Shown here one piece after another: positions 163-52,486 of a DNA stretch of 64,000 nucleotides. The translations under genes were made by a program, and so were the position numbers. The DNA comes from Bacteroidota bacterium. GTDB taxonomy: Bacteria > Bacteroidota > Bacteroidia > Chitinophagales > Chitinophagaceae. How positions within the stretch are numbered: the first letter of the stretch is position 1; every line of letters starts with the position of its first letter. The notes below the pieces were generated by a model that saw only the letters and a program-made list of their open reading frames with translations, did not search any database and was not told the DNA's origin. The stretch is from contig JAKQEA010000100.1 of assembly GCA_029558715.1 (NCBI GenBank), positions 1 through 64,000 of the forward strand. The letters run 5' to 3'.

Positions 163-1119
163 TTATTCTTCCCATACAAGAGCGCTGGCACCCAATATCG
201 CTGCATCTGCTTCTTTCAGTTCGCTGAACATCAGTTTTACTTTATTCTTAAAAACCTGTATCAGGTTTTCTTCCATTGCCTTCCGGGTTGGATTGATGAT
301 CAGGTCACCGGCCTTCGTTAAGCCGCCGAATAAAATTATCGCTTCAGGAGAGGAGAACATAATAAAATTAGCCAGTGCTTCACCGAGTATCTGCCCGGTA
401 AACTCAAATATCTGCAGGGCGATCTTATCACCCTTAACAGCACAATCATATACTGCCTGGCTGGTAAGATCGTTCAGTGAGTAAGTTCTCAGCAGACTTT
501 CAGTATCCGGGTTTTCTGTAAGTATCTCTATAGCCGTTTCTCTTACTCCGGTGGCAGAGGCGTAAGCTTCCAGCGAACCCCTGATGCCTGTTCCTTTATG
601 CATTCTTCCGCCGGGTCTCACCACCACATGTCCCAGTTCACCGGCAAATCCATCATGCCCCAGCACAATTTTACCATCGATCACAATACCACTACCCACA
701 CCAGTACCTAATGTGATAGTGATAAAATGTTTCATCCCCTTGGCGCAGCCATACATCATTTCACCTACCGCTGCCGCATTGGCATCGTTGGTAAGTTTTA
801 CTTTCATATCAAACTTTTCCGACATCATACTGGCAATAGGAATGATGCCTTTCCATTTCAGGTTGGCTGCATGTTCAATATTACCGGTGTAATAATTACC
901 ATTGGGGGCGCCCACTCCAATACCCACAAACTCTTTAGCACCACCAGCTTTTTTTATCATGGGCGATAATTGCAAAAACAATTCATCAATGAATTCCTGC
1001 ACATTTTCATGTTCGTTGGTAAGGGCTCTTCCCTGTTCAATGATTTCACCATTACGGTCAACCACACCAAATTTGGTGTTAGTACCGCCGATATCAATAC
1101 CAATTGCAAAATCTGCCAT
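163..1119 (-). CDS. ROK family sugar kinase (glucokinase-like)
   Basis: MADFAIGIDIGGTNTKFGVVD, TLGTGVGSGIVIDG and GELGHVVVRPGG motifs; start moved from 1158 to the internal Met at 1119, which removes overlap with the upstream gene. Confidence 0.9.
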   Translation of the reverse strand: MADFAIGIDIGGTNTKFGVVDRNGEIIEQGRALTNEHENVQEFIDELFLQLSPMIKKAGGAKEFVGIGVGAPNGNYYTGNIEHAANLKWKGIIPIASMMSEKFDMKVKLTNDANAAAVGEMMYGCAKGMKHFITITLGTGVGSGIVIDGKIVLGHDGFAGELGHVVVRPGGRMHKGTGIRGSLEAYASATGVRETAIEILTENPDTESLLRTYSLNDLTSQAVYDCAVKGDKIALQIFEFTGQILGEALANFIMFSSPEAIILFGGLTKAGDLIINPTRKAMEENLIQVFKNKVKLMFSELKEADAAILGASALVWEE

Positions 1120-41142: not shown

Positions 41143-41505
41143 ATGCATGGTATAATGACTATTGAGCTCAAAGAGCTGCGTTTTCATGCTTTTCATGGAC
41201 TTTTTCCGGAAGAGAAAAAGACAGGTAATGATTTTGAAGTAAATATCCTTGTCAGTTTTGTGCCAGACAGTGCAGTAATCAGGAATCTTGATTCAACAAT
41301 AGATTATGCAAGGTTGTATGACATACTAAAGGTGGAAATGAAAAAACCAAGAACATTGCTTGAAACGCTGGCCATGGAAATCGCAGAATTAATTCATTCT
41401 TTGTTTCCTGAGATCAGGAAAATTGATATAAGTATCAGGAAAGATCAACCTCCAATTCTTCATTTTACAGGCAATACCGGGGTGAGATATCAAATAGAAT
41501 ATTAG
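41143..41505 (+). CDS. folB: Dihydroneopterin aldolase
   Basis: MTIELKELRFHAFHGLFPEEKKTGNDFEVNILV...STIDYARLYDILKVEM. Confidence 0.93.
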   Translation: MHGIMTIELKELRFHAFHGLFPEEKKTGNDFEVNILVSFVPDSAVIRNLDSTIDYARLYDILKVEMKKPRTLLETLAMEIAELIHSLFPEIRKIDISIRKDQPPILHFTGNTGVRYQIEY

Positions 41506-42428
41506 TTCAATACTTTACTGGTCTGGCCAATAAGATTCCCGCTATGATATAGTTGTAAAGTGTAATTGCCCGGCAGGTAGTTGTCTGCATTAAGTGAAAA
41601 AGTGAGCCGCTTTGTTTCACTTTTCAGGTATTCAAATTTTATTTTACGGGTATAGCTTTTTCTCTCACCTGTATGGGTAATCATTGGTGATGCAGATTCC
41701 CATACATCGGGGGTCAGTACTTTACCATCTGGCTGGGTGATAATAATAAATATTTCAGCATTGTTGTAGTCATTAATATTATTCTGCACAGCAAAAGAAA
41801 CTATCAGCTTACTTACCTTTTTAGCAATATTGGTTTCCTGTTCTTTGTCATTTTTTAGCATAACGGGTGATAGCCTTATCTCTGACGCAACAAATAAGGA
41901 AGCCCGGTCAACTTTTTCAGATAAGATCCTGTTTTCATCCCCAAGCTTTTTCATTGACTGCTGAAGACCTGTTATCTCTCCATTCAATTGCAACATCACC
42001 TCATTTAGCCTTTTCTTTTCCTCTTCGATATTAGTTTTTTCACCACGCAGTTCATCCACCAAAACCTGTAACTCAGCTATTTTTTTCCGGGCTGTTGTCA
42101 TATCAGACTGACTGGCACCACGATTTCTGAGAATTCCATTTATCTCGGACCTTAACCTGTTGATTTCTCCCAGTTTCACATTTAATTCAGTCTTTAGAGA
42201 ATCAGCACCGGAACGGGTGGCACTTAACTGCTGATCTAAGTTATTAAGAGAAGTAGCATATATTTTTCTCAGTGAATCCTGGACAGCCTCCGCTACAGCT
42301 ATTGAATCCTTAATAAATATTTCTTTCCGGTGGTTGGTATATTGTGTTTTGTCATAGAGGTGATAAACCCATGTGCCTACCAAGCCGACTGAGAGCATAA
42401 CCAATAACAGGGTTTTAATATCCTTCAT
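41502..42428 (-). CDS. Membrane-anchored coiled-coil protein with C-terminal beta domain (paralogue B)
   Basis: N-terminal TM, long heptad-rich region, AKKVSKLIVSFAVQNNINDYNNAEIFIIITQPDGKVL; aligns end to end with 44286..45260. Confidence 0.75.
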   Translation of the reverse strand: MKDIKTLLLVMLSVGLVGTWVYHLYDKTQYTNHRKEIFIKDSIAVAEAVQDSLRKIYATSLNNLDQQLSATRSGADSLKTELNVKLGEINRLRSEINGILRNRGASQSDMTTARKKIAELQVLVDELRGEKTNIEEEKKRLNEVMLQLNGEITGLQQSMKKLGDENRILSEKVDRASLFVASEIRLSPVMLKNDKEQETNIAKKVSKLIVSFAVQNNINDYNNAEIFIIITQPDGKVLTPDVWESASPMITHTGERKSYTRKIKFEYLKSETKRLTFSLNADNYLPGNYTLQLYHSGNLIGQTSKVLN

Positions 42429-42455: not shown

Positions 42456-42944
42456 TTATTTTTTGAATGTAAAACCTTTGGGAGCTTTTAATATACCAAA
42501 GTCGTACATATTTATATAAATGTAAACAGGTTTTGCAAGACCCTGGTAGGTTACTTCATACCTGTCAAGCAAGCCGCCATTATTGATAAATCCGTTAGGT
42601 GTGGTGAAAGGACAGCAACTACCTTTTCTAACATATTCCACTTCCTCGCCATCTGGCCCCATCAATGCATTCAGGAATCTTCTTTCATTAAGCGGCCCTT
42701 CGCTGCTTTTTACTCCACCAACCATTATAGGGTTCTTTTCAGTATATCCATATGTTTCATCATCTGAGATTTCTTTCAGTTCAAATGTATTATTATTCAA
42801 TAACCGGGCCTGCGATTTGGAATAGGTCTTATTACTGCTTTCTGATGCGGAATAACCGCCAGCCGAACCGGCAGATGTTGTTTTTTTGGATGATCCACAT
42901 GCACTCAGGCTAAACACAACAGCCAGTAAGATGAATTTATACAT
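42456..42944 (-). CDS. Lipoprotein of unknown function (Cys-Cys motif)
   Basis: Lipobox SLSACGSS; YGYTEKNPIMVGGVKSSEGPLNERRFLNALMGPDGEEVEYVRKGSCCPFTTPNGF. Confidence 0.75.
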   Translation of the reverse strand: MYKFILLAVVFSLSACGSSKKTTSAGSAGGYSASESSNKTYSKSQARLLNNNTFELKEISDDETYGYTEKNPIMVGGVKSSEGPLNERRFLNALMGPDGEEVEYVRKGSCCPFTTPNGFINNGGLLDRYEVTYQGLAKPVYIYINMYDFGILKAPKGFTFKK

Positions 42945-42962
42945 TATACTATTTTTATTGAT

Positions 42963-44111
42963 TTACCTCGAAATAGTCTGGTCTACATATGCAGAGACCC
43001 AGCCAACCTGTCCATTTTTTACAAGGTAGAATTGCTTGGTTTCAAAAGCAGATTCAAACTGACGCATGATTTTCCATAAAAGACCTGCGCCTGACATAAG
43101 TGATTTTTGATCAAAAACCTTATGCACCCTGGCAACTTCCTGCTTTATTTGTTCTTTTAAGTCAGGCCTGTCTACAACAGAAGAAAGGAAATCAGCTGAA
43201 AGAGCCCCAAAATTATTGACAAGTTTTTCATTGAACTTTACCAGCTCATTAAAAGTAATTGATATAACAGGGTAGTCAATCAATTCCGGATGCATGAGTG
43301 TTGCAGCAGCCCAGGCGATACCACCACTAACTGCAATATTATCACTGAGCGGATAGGCACCACTCGAGTTAACTGCATAAATGATATCTGCATTTTCAGC
43401 GTTCATCAATACCCTGGAAAGATTCTTACCGAAATTGGACATACTCATATCTCCGTCACATCTTTTTTCTGCCTCGTTGAAAGTGCTTTTTGTACCCCAA
43501 TTCAATTGAAACAATTTAAAATTGCTGGTATTCATTCCATCTGGGAAGAAGCCTCCCTTTGTATTACCACTCCCGATATCAATTAGAAATGTAGTAAATC
43601 GTCTTTTATCAGGCACTATACCCAGGTGCGAAAGCCGGGCTTCCTGCATCACATCCACTATTTCCACCATTCTTTCAGGCTCGTTGATCCTGCTCCTGAA
43701 TGAATCTATCAGTTGCCTGACCATACTTGTTTTCTGGTCTTTTTCTGCCTGCATTTTTACCCCACTGCTAATAACGGTGAAAATTCTTTTAGAAGGTATC
43801 TTTAGATCCTTTGTCGCTTTTGTATACAACCCATATAACCCATCCAGGGTAGCATTAAATGTTGGCTGGGAGAAACTAATAAAATCTGTATTTACAGATG
43901 TATCCTTAATAATATTAAATGCGCCGGTGCTTTGTGCATTTTTCCCAATTTCAATGATACTCATCTTTACTCCCTTTGAACCAACTTCAATACCGGTGTA
44001 AATTGAAGAATTATTATACTTGGGCTGCACAGTATTTTGAGCAACAGTTATTAAGGATGTTAGAAGAAGAGTAACAGGCAAAACTATTTGCCGGTAAATT
44101 TTGTGCAGCAT
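42963..44111 (-). CDS. Exported Ppx/GppA-like (ASKHA-fold) protein
   Basis: Sec signal peptide (TSLITVAQ); IYTGIEVGSKGVKMSIIEIG, VEIVDVMQEARLSHLGIVP, TFLIDIGSGNTKGGFF, AVSGGIAWAAATLM resemble Ppx/GppA motifs. Confidence 0.65.
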   Translation of the reverse strand: MLHKIYRQIVLPVTLLLTSLITVAQNTVQPKYNNSSIYTGIEVGSKGVKMSIIEIGKNAQSTGAFNIIKDTSVNTDFISFSQPTFNATLDGLYGLYTKATKDLKIPSKRIFTVISSGVKMQAEKDQKTSMVRQLIDSFRSRINEPERMVEIVDVMQEARLSHLGIVPDKRRFTTFLIDIGSGNTKGGFFPDGMNTSNFKLFQLNWGTKSTFNEAEKRCDGDMSMSNFGKNLSRVLMNAENADIIYAVNSSGAYPLSDNIAVSGGIAWAAATLMHPELIDYPVISITFNELVKFNEKLVNNFGALSADFLSSVVDRPDLKEQIKQEVARVHKVFDQKSLMSGAGLLWKIMRQFESAFETKQFYLVKNGQVGWVSAYVDQTISR

Positions 44112-44285: not shown

Positions 44286-45260
44286 TTAACTGAATAAACC
44301 ACCTTTTTTCAGGCTTCTTACACCTTCACCGATTTTAAATCCATTATGGTAGATTTCAACTTTATAATCACCAGTTTTGAAATCCCCTTGTTTGATAGGG
44401 AATTGAACCGGTTTACGGGTTCCCTGCTCATAATTTACAGGAATTCTTGCTGTAAATGTTTTTTCACCATCCTGACGGGTATTCAAAACGCTTCCTGCTT
44501 CAGAAATTACTTTTCCATCAGGAGCTGTTACGATCAGATACATATCAGCAGGACCTGATTTTGCAATACGGTTTTCAACATCAAATGAAACTACAAGCTT
44601 ATCTACTTTCTTCGCAGTGCTTGTATTTTTCTCTTTTCCGCTTTTCTTTTCATCAACAGGAGTTACCTGTATGTTTGAAGCGCTGAAAGTAGATCCTACA
44701 TCAACCGTTTTTTCCAGGCTTTCTTTTTCTGATTTAGTGGTTGTCAGGTTTGTTTCCAATGTTGCTTTTTCCTCTTTCAGAGTAGTATTAGCCGCTGTAA
44801 GCTCCTGGTTTTCCCCTGTCAGGCGGGATACCTCAGCTTCCAGGCTAGTGATCTTATCGTTTAATTCTGAGATCATCGTTCTTGCCTTGGCTAGTTGAGC
44901 CTGTGTTGCATTTTTATCATTCAGGATCTTGCGGATCTCCGATTTTTTAGCATCGATCTCTTTTTGTTTATCGGTCAACTGACCCTGAAGGTTATTGTTG
45001 GCACCCGTAACAGAGTCAAGTCTTGCCAGGGCATTATCAAACTCCATTTGAATATCTGTCTTTGCAGAGTCTAATGCAGCAATCTGAGTTTGTTGTTTAG
45101 AGATCGTTTCTCCGGATTTGTTTTTGTCCCAGAGAAGGTAACCCCAGGTACCCAAAAGGCCTGCGGCCAGCAAGCCTATCACGATATTCTTGCTATTCTT
45201 GTTTTTGTTCGGCTGGCTTTGGGGGGTGGCAGAAGCCGAAGGATAATTCGTGTTTGTCAT
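44286..45260 (-). CDS. Membrane-anchored coiled-coil protein with C-terminal beta domain (paralogue A)
   Basis: Single TM KNIVIGLLAAGLLGTWGYLLW, long coiled coil, TAKKVDKLVVSFDVENRIAKSGPADMYLIVTAPDGKVI. Confidence 0.75.
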   Translation of the reverse strand: MTNTNYPSASATPQSQPNKNKNSKNIVIGLLAAGLLGTWGYLLWDKNKSGETISKQQTQIAALDSAKTDIQMEFDNALARLDSVTGANNNLQGQLTDKQKEIDAKKSEIRKILNDKNATQAQLAKARTMISELNDKITSLEAEVSRLTGENQELTAANTTLKEEKATLETNLTTTKSEKESLEKTVDVGSTFSASNIQVTPVDEKKSGKEKNTSTAKKVDKLVVSFDVENRIAKSGPADMYLIVTAPDGKVISEAGSVLNTRQDGEKTFTARIPVNYEQGTRKPVQFPIKQGDFKTGDYKVEIYHNGFKIGEGVRSLKKGGLFS

Positions 45261-48374: not shown

Positions 48375-49544
48375 ATGAGCCTGTATTCAAAAAGAGGGGT
48401 TTCTGCACAAAAAGAAGAAGTGCATGCCGCCACCAGAAACCTTGATAAGGGTCTTTATGCAAATGCCTTTTGCAAAATATACCCCGATGTATTGTGTGGA
48501 GATGATGCTTGGGTGAATGTGATGCATGCTGATGGTGCCGGCACCAAAAGTATACTGGCCTATCTGTACTGGAAAGAAACGGGTGATGTATCGGTGTGGA
48601 AAGGCATAGCCCAGGATGCTATTGTAATGAACCTGGACGATCTTCTTTGTGTGGGCATTTATGATAACCTGCTTTTTTCTTCCACTATCGACCGGAACAA
48701 GAATCTAATCCCTGCTGAGGTGCTGGAAGCAGTGATTACCGGAACCCAGGAATTCTTTGATACGATGAAAAATTTCGGTGTCAATATCAGCTTTATGGGA
48801 GGCGAAACAGCTGATGTGGGAGATATAGTAAGAACGATTGCAGTGAACGGAACAATGACTGCCCGCTGGCCCAAATCAAAACTGGTTACCAACGAAAAAA
48901 TAAAGGCAGGTAATGTGATTGTTGGATTGGCAGGTTTTGGACAGGCCAACTATGAGGCATCATATAACAGTGGTCTTGCCAGCAACGGACTGACCAGCGC
49001 CAGGCATGATGTACTGCATAAAACATACGGGGCAAGATTTCCGGAAAGTTATGATACATCACTGGATGAATCGGTGGTATACATCGGCCCACACAGAATG
49101 ACTGATGAAGTGGAGTATGGAGGATTAAAATACGAAGTCGGAAAGTTGTTGCTTTCTCCTACCAGAACTTTTGCCCCTGTGATGAAAGAATTGCTTGAGA
49201 ATCATTTTGAGTCTATACATGGACTCATTCATTGCAGCGGTGGCGGACAAACCAAATGCCTGAAATATGTTCCTGAAAATGTTCGCATCGTAAAAGACAA
49301 TTTGTTCGAACCACCTGTAATTTTCAAACTTATTCAGCAAGCCAGTAAGTCGGATGACAGAGAAATGTACCAGGTATTTAATATGGGTACAAGGGTAGAG
49401 ATTTATACCAACGAAAATGACGTCGATGCTATTATAGCTGTCTCAAAAAATTTTGGTGTGGATGCACAGGTTATCGGAAGAGTGGAGGAGAGCGAAAGAA
49501 AAGAAATGCAGATTAAAAAATCAAATAGTATTCTTACTTACTAG
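48375..49544 (+). CDS. purM: Phosphoribosylformylglycinamidine cyclo-ligase (AIR synthase)
   Basis: MHADGAGTKSILAYLYWKETGD, FMGGETADVGDIVRT, LIHCSGGGQTKCLKY. Confidence 0.88.
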   Translation: MSLYSKRGVSAQKEEVHAATRNLDKGLYANAFCKIYPDVLCGDDAWVNVMHADGAGTKSILAYLYWKETGDVSVWKGIAQDAIVMNLDDLLCVGIYDNLLFSSTIDRNKNLIPAEVLEAVITGTQEFFDTMKNFGVNISFMGGETADVGDIVRTIAVNGTMTARWPKSKLVTNEKIKAGNVIVGLAGFGQANYEASYNSGLASNGLTSARHDVLHKTYGARFPESYDTSLDESVVYIGPHRMTDEVEYGGLKYEVGKLLLSPTRTFAPVMKELLENHFESIHGLIHCSGGGQTKCLKYVPENVRIVKDNLFEPPVIFKLIQQASKSDDREMYQVFNMGTRVEIYTNENDVDAIIAVSKNFGVDAQVIGRVEESERKEMQIKKSNSILTY

Positions 49545-52486
49545 TCCACTACATAATAAAAACGAGACGCTATTTTTTTATCTACCCCGTTTTCACGGAT
49601 GATGATCCTGTCAATAGTAATCAGTTTCCCGGCTTTGGAGTTCTTCATTTGGTATAGAGTAGCCTGATTGAATTCATTCCCGGTATTATATATAGATATA
49701 ATTTCCCTGGCATCATTATCAATAGTGAAAGTATAACTGATTACTTCTGTTCCAGGAGGAATTTGTAGCAGTTCCGTGACATTTACTTTTTGAAGGTTGC
49801 TCACAGAAATCTCAGGCCTTTTTAATTTAACCTGAACTCCTTCAATTGGCGGTCTATACTCAGGGACTGTTCTGATTGGAAAAATTATTTCTTTAATTGG
49901 CACTTTTTTATTGCCATCAAGAGTATAAAAGGATAATGTTGAATTATCAGAAATACTGGTCACTGTTATAATAAAATCATTATTATACCTGCTTACAGTG
50001 CCGTGGGGTTTTATATCAGCAGAAATCTTGCTGATATCATATCCAGGGGCATCTATTTTTATAGTGTTATGTATGCCTATATAGAGTATCTTTGGATCCA
50101 GTCTGATAGGTAAGTTACTAGTCAGGAGAGAAGCTGTTTTATTGTAAATAGTGAGGTTTTCTTTGACCTTAACATCTGTAACTGGTGTAATATCAACTAC
50201 CACCACTTCATTCAGCATATTTGTGGGATTGCTTCCTTCAGTTTTGGAAACCTTATCTCCTTTTCCCACTACAAATGTGATGGGTTGTTTCTTATATGCT
50301 TTTACGTGTCTGCCATTCTGAAGGGCAGGAATCCACTTAGGTCCTTTTTTAATTACTCTCATGGCTTCCTCTTCCATGCCATATCCATGTTTGGTAAGTG
50401 ATCTTACGTTAGTAATAAATCCGTCAAGATCAACGATAAACTGGACAATTACCGTATAGGCTCCGGCAGGTGCTTTATTAATGGTGGGTATTGAAGCATT
50501 CAGGTTCCTTTCCAGATAGAGCCTCCATTTAGAATCGCCTCCCGGGAATGAGGGTTCAATTTCAATTTTGTCAAATATTTTATTATCTGTATCAGAAGGT
50601 TTAGTTGTATCTGCCGGCAACGAAGGCAACTCCAATTTCATAACGGTGGCATTTTTAAAAACGGTTACTCCTTTTTTTGCCTCTGCGCCATATAATTTTG
50701 TGGCATATTCATCGTTTTCCGGATAGATAATTATTTGTTTGGCAACAATCTTTTTCCCAAGAATATAATCGTAAGGTTTCTTTTGACCGTTTACAACTAT
50801 TAATGAGTGATTAATATCCGGAACTGCTTTTTTAGAGTCTGATTCAAAGACAATGGAGTCAGCAGAAATATACATTGCATTCTTAGAATCAGTAAAATGT
50901 ATATAGCCAGAAACCCTTCCTTCAACATTCTTTTCAAATAGTTTGTTTATTACCGGAGTAGTGTCCGAAAATATTGCTTTTCTTTCTTCCCAGTCTGTAC
51001 TTTTTTGTTGCATGATATATTGGTCAATTGCCAGCAGTATGCTTTCAGCAATTTTCTCCTGGTTGTCTGTGTTTTTGATGAACTTCAGGTCTTTTTCATT
51101 ACTTATATATCCGCATTCAATTAAGGCAGAGGGGCAATTACTATTTTCAAGCACCCATACAGATTGTTCTTTTTGCTTCGCAACATTATCTACAGTGTAG
51201 TTTTGTGCCAGGTACCCAAGCAGGATAGAGGCCAGTATTTTATTTTCGCTGCCAAAGTTTTTTGCTTTTGAGGGAATAACCACTTCAAACCCTGTTTTTG
51301 TTTTATTGGGTGAGGAATTTACGTGTAGTGATAAGAATAGAGCCGGTTTTTGCTGGTTTCCGAATTCTGACCTTGCTTTTAGTTCCGGAAGTATATCAGT
51401 TTCCCTTGTCAATATAATTTTTATATTCTCATCTTCATTCAATGCCTTTATTTTTTGGGCAATTGCTAACGCAATATCTTTTTCTGCAGTTCCGTCAGTT
51501 GCGATGGCTCCTTTATCTGTACCTCCATGCCCAATATCTATGACAACAGTAACCGGACCATTAGAGCTATCAATAAAAGAGCTCTCCTTTTTGTTTTTGT
51601 AGCTGAAAGCAAAGAGAATCACAGCAAGGGCAGTGAGTGGCAATAGCATCAGTTTCCGTAAATACCGGTGGCTTGTTTTTTTTGAAGAAGTAATCATGGC
51701 TATACGTCTTTTTATCTGGTTATGAAAAAAAGGGTTGACAAGAGATTGATTGGTGTTCAATGCCTGCATCAGTAATAGTTCGGCATACTGCCATTTTGTA
51801 TTTTCTGTTATGGCAAACTGATCGGCCAGGAATTCATGAATGGCTTTTATTTCCTTTTTAATAAGATGGAAAAAGGGATTGATCCAACAAGCTACTGTTA
51901 GCAATTCAAGGTAAATCACATCCCAACTGTGTCGTTGCTCAATATGAAATAACTCATGACGGAATATTTGTTCTCCTTTCTCCGATTGCAATTCAATTTT
52001 CTTATTCCAGAACAGCCAGCGGAAAAAAGAAAAGGGAGTGCCTGGTTCCTCAGTGTTGACAAAATGTATTTTGTCTAATTTCTCAACAGGATTGGTTTTG
52101 ATTATTTTTCTGATTTTCAAAATAGAAAAAATAATTTTCAACAAAATTGTTAAGGCGATAAGTATATAAAATGTAATAGCAAAGTTTTTCCATGTAAACC
52201 ACTCATAATATGTTTTTGGTTTTGTAACTGATATAGCCTTTTCCTCAATACCAGGTGAAGAAATTATCGAAAGCGTATGTAATACAAATGACGAATCGGT
52301 TTCAGCGTCGTTGAAGTATATGGGTATACTCAAAAAAGGGATCGTAATGCTTAAAACCGTTGCAGCCAGCAGGTAAAACCTGTTGTACTTGTGGAATCTT
52401 TTGTTTCGCAATACAAAGTGGTAGTAGCTGTAAAGTATGCAAGAGATGATGATTACCTGGAACCCGTAATAGAATAATGCTGTCAT
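49541..52486 (-). CDS. BlaR1-type M56 metallopeptidase fused to N-acetylmuramoyl-L-alanine amidase and TonB C-terminal domain
   Basis: TM segments plus IFRHELFHIEQRHSWD; amidase_3 VVIDIGHGGTDKGAIATDG, LFLSLHVNSSPN, SALIECGYISNEKDL; TonB_C FPGGDSKWRLYLERNLN...VIVQFIVDLDGFI. Confidence 0.88.
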   Translation of the reverse strand: MTALFYYGFQVIIISCILYSYYHFVLRNKRFHKYNRFYLLAATVLSITIPFLSIPIYFNDAETDSSFVLHTLSIISSPGIEEKAISVTKPKTYYEWFTWKNFAITFYILIALTILLKIIFSILKIRKIIKTNPVEKLDKIHFVNTEEPGTPFSFFRWLFWNKKIELQSEKGEQIFRHELFHIEQRHSWDVIYLELLTVACWINPFFHLIKKEIKAIHEFLADQFAITENTKWQYAELLLMQALNTNQSLVNPFFHNQIKRRIAMITSSKKTSHRYLRKLMLLPLTALAVILFAFSYKNKKESSFIDSSNGPVTVVIDIGHGGTDKGAIATDGTAEKDIALAIAQKIKALNEDENIKIILTRETDILPELKARSEFGNQQKPALFLSLHVNSSPNKTKTGFEVVIPSKAKNFGSENKILASILLGYLAQNYTVDNVAKQKEQSVWVLENSNCPSALIECGYISNEKDLKFIKNTDNQEKIAESILLAIDQYIMQQKSTDWEERKAIFSDTTPVINKLFEKNVEGRVSGYIHFTDSKNAMYISADSIVFESDSKKAVPDINHSLIVVNGQKKPYDYILGKKIVAKQIIIYPENDEYATKLYGAEAKKGVTVFKNATVMKLELPSLPADTTKPSDTDNKIFDKIEIEPSFPGGDSKWRLYLERNLNASIPTINKAPAGAYTVIVQFIVDLDGFITNVRSLTKHGYGMEEEAMRVIKKGPKWIPALQNGRHVKAYKKQPITFVVGKGDKVSKTEGSNPTNMLNEVVVVDITPVTDVKVKENLTIYNKTASLLTSNLPIRLDPKILYIGIHNTIKIDAPGYDISKISADIKPHGTVSRYNNDFIITVTSISDNSTLSFYTLDGNKKVPIKEIIFPIRTVPEYRPPIEGVQVKLKRPEISVSNLQKVNVTELLQIPPGTEVISYTFTIDNDAREIISIYNTGNEFNQATLYQMKNSKAGKLITIDRIIIRENGVDKKIASRFYYVVD

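Follow-up and report, generated by a model that had tools for sequence, protein, structure and literature searches.

Work on the Ppx/GppA enzymes has dealt with them as regulators of polyphosphate and of the stringent response in the cytoplasm. Other enzymes of the ASKHA fold work elsewhere: the ecto-NTPDases or apyrases (GDA1_CD39; rat NTPDase2, Legionella NTPDase1) are phosphoanhydride hydrolases that act outside the cytoplasm. The premise of an earlier note on this DNA, that ASKHA enzymes are normally cytoplasmic, is too strict: it overlooks the secreted NTPDases, which are ASKHA enzymes known to act outside cells, and their existence means that an exported Ppx-like domain would be unusual yet has a precedent.

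In E. coli Ppx the residues E121, D143 and E150 are each required for activity (PMC5417653), and the catalytic residues named for mycobacterial PPX are Asp135/Glu142, which are metal ligands, and the Arg84/Glu112 pair, R84 of the M. tuberculosis protein being the catalytic Arg of Ppx (PMC3411833). No periplasmic or extracellular exopolyphosphatase of Bacteroidota, and no exported branch of Ppx/GppA, was found in the literature searched, which covered few subscription journals. The window analysed here, a 64,000-nucleotide stretch of a Chitinophagaceae genome, encodes a protein that appears to belong to a divergent branch of the Ppx/GppA superfamily rather than to be a canonical member of it.

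A conserved gene on the minus strand

42963..44111, minus strand: gene for the predicted exported Ppx/GppA-like ASKHA protein, 382 aa, ATG start

The earlier note had picked out this open reading frame, which proved to be a real gene with conserved orthologues; its strand, left unstated there, is the minus strand, and every motif quoted in the note was found in the 382-aa product. Orthologues with 58-97% identity, in which length, frame and start region are kept, were present in many Chitinophagaceae MAGs. When the mature part was compared with that of the 97%-identical orthologue L002, dN was 0.0095 and dS 0.45 (dN/dS about 0.02), while the corresponding values for residues 1-25 were 0.13 and 0.08. 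The gene is real and under strong purifying selection. Its distribution is patchy, extending to 12 of 61 Chitinophagaceae genera and to half of the 12 genomes of the source genus (6/12). The source genome also encodes a second Ppx-like protein of the predicted exported type (L023, G000:C146), which carries an N-terminal TPR fusion and is 29% identical to the window protein, and elsewhere an ordinary Ppx that lacks a signal peptide and carries the motifs GSN, ATSAMR and GGGSTE.

Family builds and distribution

Distant relatives were recruited by a phylum-wide search with the family profile, giving a family of 32 sequences. Four builds were observed:

Build 1: signal peptide and domain; Chitinophagaceae, including the window protein
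Build 2: signal peptide, TPR and domain; including the paralogue G000:C146 of the source genome
Build 3: signal peptide and domain; in a further family of this class, its genomes being labelled "Flavobacteriia-type" by resemblance only
Build 4: a shorter form, anchored by an N-terminal membrane helix or carrying a lipobox

Among 297 sampled Bacteroidota genomes, 20 (about 7%) contained a member scoring >190 bits, and the next score, 46 bits, belonged to a canonical Ppx. The putative exported branch is spread over at least five Bacteroidota families; a search of viral contigs for relatives found none. On the tree, the canonical Ppx were grouped in a clade of their own (100/100), set off from the putative exported family by a long branch, a reading that leaves out L063, a mis-extracted Ppx control taken from the wrong ORF.

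Several observations concern the short forms. Short membrane-anchored or lipoprotein Ppx-like proteins were seen in L042, L043, L044, L052, L041 and L050. Two lipoprotein copies of the Ppx-like gene lie about 5 kb apart in genome G145 (L081). At L077 (G306) and L084 the short-form gene adjoins genes that we take to resemble parts of a TelA-type toxic-anion operon.

Predicted export by the Sec pathway

44040..44111, minus strand: predicted Sec signal peptide, residues 1-24 (MLHKIYRQIVLPVTLLLTSLITVA), with a basic n-region, a hydrophobic core and an A|Q end

The N-terminus, MLHKIYRQ-IVLPVTLLLTSLI-TVA|Q, has the organization of a Sec signal peptide of the signal peptidase I type, and the orthologues share this plan; cleavage would fall at A24|Q25, the mature protein starting at Q25. 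The character of the segment is kept while its sequence is not, residues 1-25 being only 16-44% identical where the mature part is 67-82% identical. This fast drift, in a segment that keeps its basic start, its hydrophobic core and its A|Q end, resembles a cleaved Sec signal peptide. A hydrophobic N-terminus was present in 32/32 relatives, with a 12-residue mean Kyte-Doolittle value of 1.8-3.4 compared with at most 1.8 in cytoplasmic Ppx, and all 32 relatives, as against none of the canonical Ppx controls, have an N-terminus predicted to be signal-peptide-like, a lipobox or an anchor. The lipobox (L041, L050) and signal-anchor (L042-L044, L052) types are variants at this end of the protein.

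The protein is thus predicted, with high confidence, to be exported by Sec, and the earlier note's proposal to that effect is supported by the hydrophobic N-termini of all 32 relatives and by the fast evolution of residues 1-25 only. The alternative is that the N-terminus is an uncleaved anchor, or that the protein is cytoplasmic with an incidental hydrophobic segment. Some relatives are clearly held by an N-terminal helix, as this would have it; however, most relatives show an AQ-type end after a hydrophobic core of 20-odd residues, lipoprotein variants exist, rapid drift is confined to the first 25 residues, the remainder being fixed, and an uncleaved N-terminal helix would still put the domain outside, all of which makes this alternative extremely unlikely.

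Homology to Ppx/GppA

When the window protein alone was searched against Pfam, NCBIfam and the PDB, there was no match above chance, and none to PF02541; the matches of the single protein to PCNA_N and MtrB were judged to be due to chance. Profile-profile comparison of 16 Chitinophagaceae sequences with 21 Bacteroidota Ppx gave 95.3% (E 2.3e-8, 268 columns), and in this alignment the catalytic Glu of Ppx is matched by E157, and its DIGGGST by D178-IGSGNT. For the whole 32-sequence family compared with Bacteroidota Ppx using hhalign, the value was 98.2% (E 4.3e-14). The top PDB matches of the family profile were all Ppx/GppA (6pc0 1.4e-7, 2j4r 1.1e-6), and the Flavobacteriia-type relative L034 scored 57.5 bits on PF02541, for which the cut-off is 27. 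Matches with E<0.1 were obtained by 16/32 members to PF02541 and by 22/32 to the exopolyphosphatase model TIGR03706.

Two AlphaFold models were made with ten close orthologues as input, with and without the signal peptide. Both were weak (pLDDT 57-58, pTM about 0.4), and Foldseek searches with these weak models returned Ppx/GppA first (E 1e-8 to 1e-10) and NTPDases second, at TM-scores near 0.3. It is the profile evidence that bears the fold claim, and the models do no more than agree with it. At the level of sequence, these comparisons show the window protein to be homologous to Ppx/GppA. The hhalign result, the PDB profile search and the PF02541 score of L034 support the Ppx/GppA-type ASKHA fold that the earlier note had suggested.

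A consistently altered active site

43959..43994, minus strand: phosphate-1 loop, residues 40-51 (GIEVGSKGVKMS), aligned with the Ppx DxGSN loop
43752..43775, minus strand: segment aligned with Ppx ATSAxR, residues 113-120 (VISSGVKM), with K119 in the place of the Ppx catalytic Arg
43620..43652, minus strand: connect-1 motif, residues 154-164 (VMQEARLSHLG), with E157 at the catalytic-base position, corresponding to E. coli Ppx E121
43548..43580, minus strand: phosphate-2 loop, residues 178-188 (DIGSGNTKGGF), D178 corresponding to Ppx D143 and K185 to Ppx E150
43308..43328, minus strand: adenosine-type motif, residues 262-268 (SGGIAWA), with G263 invariant and G264 nearly so

Five residues (E157, D178, G180, G206 and G263) are invariant in 32/32 sequences, down to 15% identity. 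Other positions depart from Ppx. In the phosphate-1 loop the Ppx Asp is E42 and the Ppx Asn is K46 in the window protein, and across the family the Asp is mostly Glu while the Asn is changed to K, S or R. The position of the catalytic Arg, which is Arg in 19/20 Ppx, is Lys in the window clade and variable elsewhere in the family. Critically, the position of E150, the second metal-binding Glu of Ppx, is Glu in 18/20 Ppx and Lys in 31/32 family members, and this E-to-K swap accompanies predicted export across all four family builds. The alignments show that the predicted active site differs consistently from that of Ppx. Profile comparison confirms that the resemblance to Ppx described in the earlier note is not due to chance, while the key difference in the active site, E150->K with loss of the Arg, had been missed there.

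In the comparison of the family profile with the PDB, the E150/K185 site was aligned with the position changed in the H. pylori E143A mutant, whose structure (6pc1) holds ppGpp. Because E. coli Ppx requires E150 and ppGpp is bound in the E143A structure, the E-to-K swap may abolish hydrolysis. A Lys at the E150 position is also present in an HgdC/BadF-type activase, suggesting that nucleotide binding or hydrolysis need not end with it. Changing this Glu in Ppx proper leaves residual activity only, which makes a canonical Mg-dependent polyphosphatase unlikely.

Gene neighbourhood

44286..45260, minus strand: CC1, upstream; membrane-anchored coiled-coil protein with a C-terminal beta-type domain, 324 aa
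44236..44266, minus strand: intrinsic-terminator-like hairpin (12-pair stem) with a T tract, in the gap that separates CC1 from the ASKHA gene
42456..42944, minus strand: gene for a small lipoprotein with the lipobox LSAC, lying between CC2 and the ASKHA gene; present in the window and L002 only
41502..42428, minus strand: CC2, downstream; paralogue of CC1, 308 aa, adjoining the ASKHA gene in most Chitinophagaceae loci

The two coiled-coil proteins matched each other by hhalign (100%, E 1.4e-47) and share the conserved C-terminal beta-type domain; CC1 has no usable Pfam or NCBIfam family, and the matches of the two proteins to SMC and Fez1, being driven by the coiled coil, were discarded as composition. 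The terminator-like hairpin suggests that the ASKHA gene may open a new transcription unit with CC2. The order CC1-ASKHA-CC2 was found at 14 distinct Chitinophagaceae loci, the window included, and there the ASKHA gene and CC2 are close together on the same strand, 10-119 bp apart in most, the lipoprotein gene intervening in the window and L002.

CC1 is present in 60/61 Chitinophagaceae genomes, with or without the ASKHA gene, which is present in 12/61. These counts speak against CC1-ASKHA-CC2 as an obligate system, and the gene order is best read as an insertion between an older pair of genes in one clade. Beyond these loci, the ASKHA gene lies beside a divergent CC2 at L086, and at the Flavobacteriia-type locus L079 a CC homologue is found two genes away (hhalign 70%, compared with 6% for the best unrelated of 644 proteins). 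No CC gene was found nearby at L087-L089 and L116-L118, where some contigs are short. Taken together, the data are a hint, not proof, of a partnership between the ASKHA protein and the coiled-coil proteins.

Two further genes of the window were recorded. On the minus strand at 49541-52486 is a 981-aa protein combining Peptidase_M56 (BlaR1), Amidase_3 and TonB_C with a weak match to the third domain of GldM; its counterpart in the near-identical L002 has 740 aa and lacks the M56 match. At the left end of the window, a 331-aa open frame gave a weak BcrAD_BadFG match (982-1104, minus strand; 24.9 bits) and is perhaps a sugar-kinase-type ASKHA protein.

Proposed function

The reading that we favour, with belief and doubt in about equal measure, is that the window protein would be a specialised extracytoplasmic phosphoanhydride hydrolase, which binds a phosphoanhydride ligand and hydrolyses it slowly with E157 as base. 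Homologous to the Ppx/GppA superfamily and predicted from its N-terminus to leave the cytoplasm, it would belong to a branch of that superfamily which in Bacteroidota is extracytoplasmic; Sec would export it, and cleavage would fall close to A24|Q25. Its two-lobed cleft would bind either a nucleotide or short polyphosphate that has escaped from the cytoplasm, and this ligand would most likely be hydrolysed slowly. In this scheme the general base would be E157, and the metal-bound water would be held by D178. Charge compensation, provided in canonical Ppx by Glu, Arg and Asn, would fall to K185 and, in the window clade, to K119 and K46. In its mode of action the protein would resemble a slow ASKHA switch, or an NTPDase of the secreted kind, more than the processive cytoplasmic polyphosphatase of the same genome. 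In the window clade, gene order points to probable joint action with the membrane-anchored CC2, with which the gene is apparently co-transcribed.

Two other explanations were considered. An ordinary exopolyphosphatase or GppA could simply have been exported, degrading extracellular polyphosphate by the canonical Mg-dependent mechanism; the best matches are indeed to Ppx/GppA, the residues corresponding to E121 and D143 are retained, and the spacing of the motifs agrees. However, the replacement of E150 by Lys and of the catalytic Arg by Lys or another residue runs through the family, which itself lies far from canonical Ppx on the tree, and such a relocated enzyme is thus quite improbable. The main rival to the slow hydrolase is a pseudoenzyme or sensor that binds phosphate, polyphosphate or nucleotide without hydrolysis, passing ligand-induced closure of the lobes to its partners (coiled-coil proteins here, the fused TPRs in the sister group). 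The change of an essential second metal-ligand Glu to Lys in 31/32 members and the loss of the catalytic Arg would fit such a protein, as would the fusion of the domain to TPR protein-interaction repeats, its position beside coiled-coil proteins, and the precedent of Rtg2p, a superfamily member with a published role in signalling and a residue other than that of Ppx at the same position (Q165; PMC5417653). Pseudoenzymes usually lose the base, however, and here E157, D178 and G180 are invariant; we regard the sensor as possible, if doubtful. A bolder version, which we think rather unlikely, is that an extracytoplasmic branch of the superfamily arose in Bacteroidota in which Glu150 and the Arg were replaced (here by lysines), and that its members would act as envelope switches, responding to a phosphate polymer or nucleotide and driving membrane-anchored coiled-coil or TPR partners. 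If it were true, there would be a periplasmic system for sensing or salvaging polyphosphate or nucleotides that has previously been undescribed.

In Bacteroidota, export appears to go together with a changed active site, in a branch that has been little noticed. A conserved exported branch with two catalytic residues changed would mean that a separate class of proteins handles or senses phosphoanhydrides in the envelope or outside the cell. With the E-to-K swap as a mark, members of this branch can be told by sequence from the real exopolyphosphatases, whose models (TIGR03706) the branch attracts.

Comparison with known systems

The ecto-NTPDases were the second-best structural matches in the Foldseek searches with the weak models. 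Their sequence similarity is far weaker (best PDB profile match E 0.24), the GDA1_CD39 Pfam model matched neither the window protein nor the family, and where the window protein has K185 the residue of the NTPDases is Gln. In the HgdC/BadF-type ATPases (PF01869), which are cytoplasmic iron-sulfur activators, the phosphate-2 loop likewise ends in TK (DIGGQDTK in L126). Assignment to the BadF/HgdC family, prompted by this TK, was rejected, as hhalign gave 0.1-2.5% against the PF01869 family. The Ppx-like ASKHA domain of yeast Rtg2p, a protein that functions in signalling, likewise departs from Ppx at the position of E150 (PMC5417653); unlike the window protein, Rtg2p is eukaryotic and intracellular, has Gln rather than Lys at this position, and carries extra C-terminal domains.

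The closest relatives are the Ppx/GppA proteins (PF02541, TIGR03706), of which Aquifex 1t6c/2j4r, H. pylori 6pc0 and E. coli Ppx 1u6z are examples. The window family appears to share their fold, by profile and by Foldseek with the weak models, and has in common with them the order and spacing of the motifs, the catalytic Glu, the phosphate-2 Asp and the GG adenosine motif. In contrast to Ppx/GppA, the window family is predicted to be exported, its second metal-ligand Glu is Lys, its catalytic Arg is Lys or another residue, its phosphate-1 Asp is mostly Glu with the Asn changed to K, S or R, and the window clade falls below detection by Pfam and NCBIfam.
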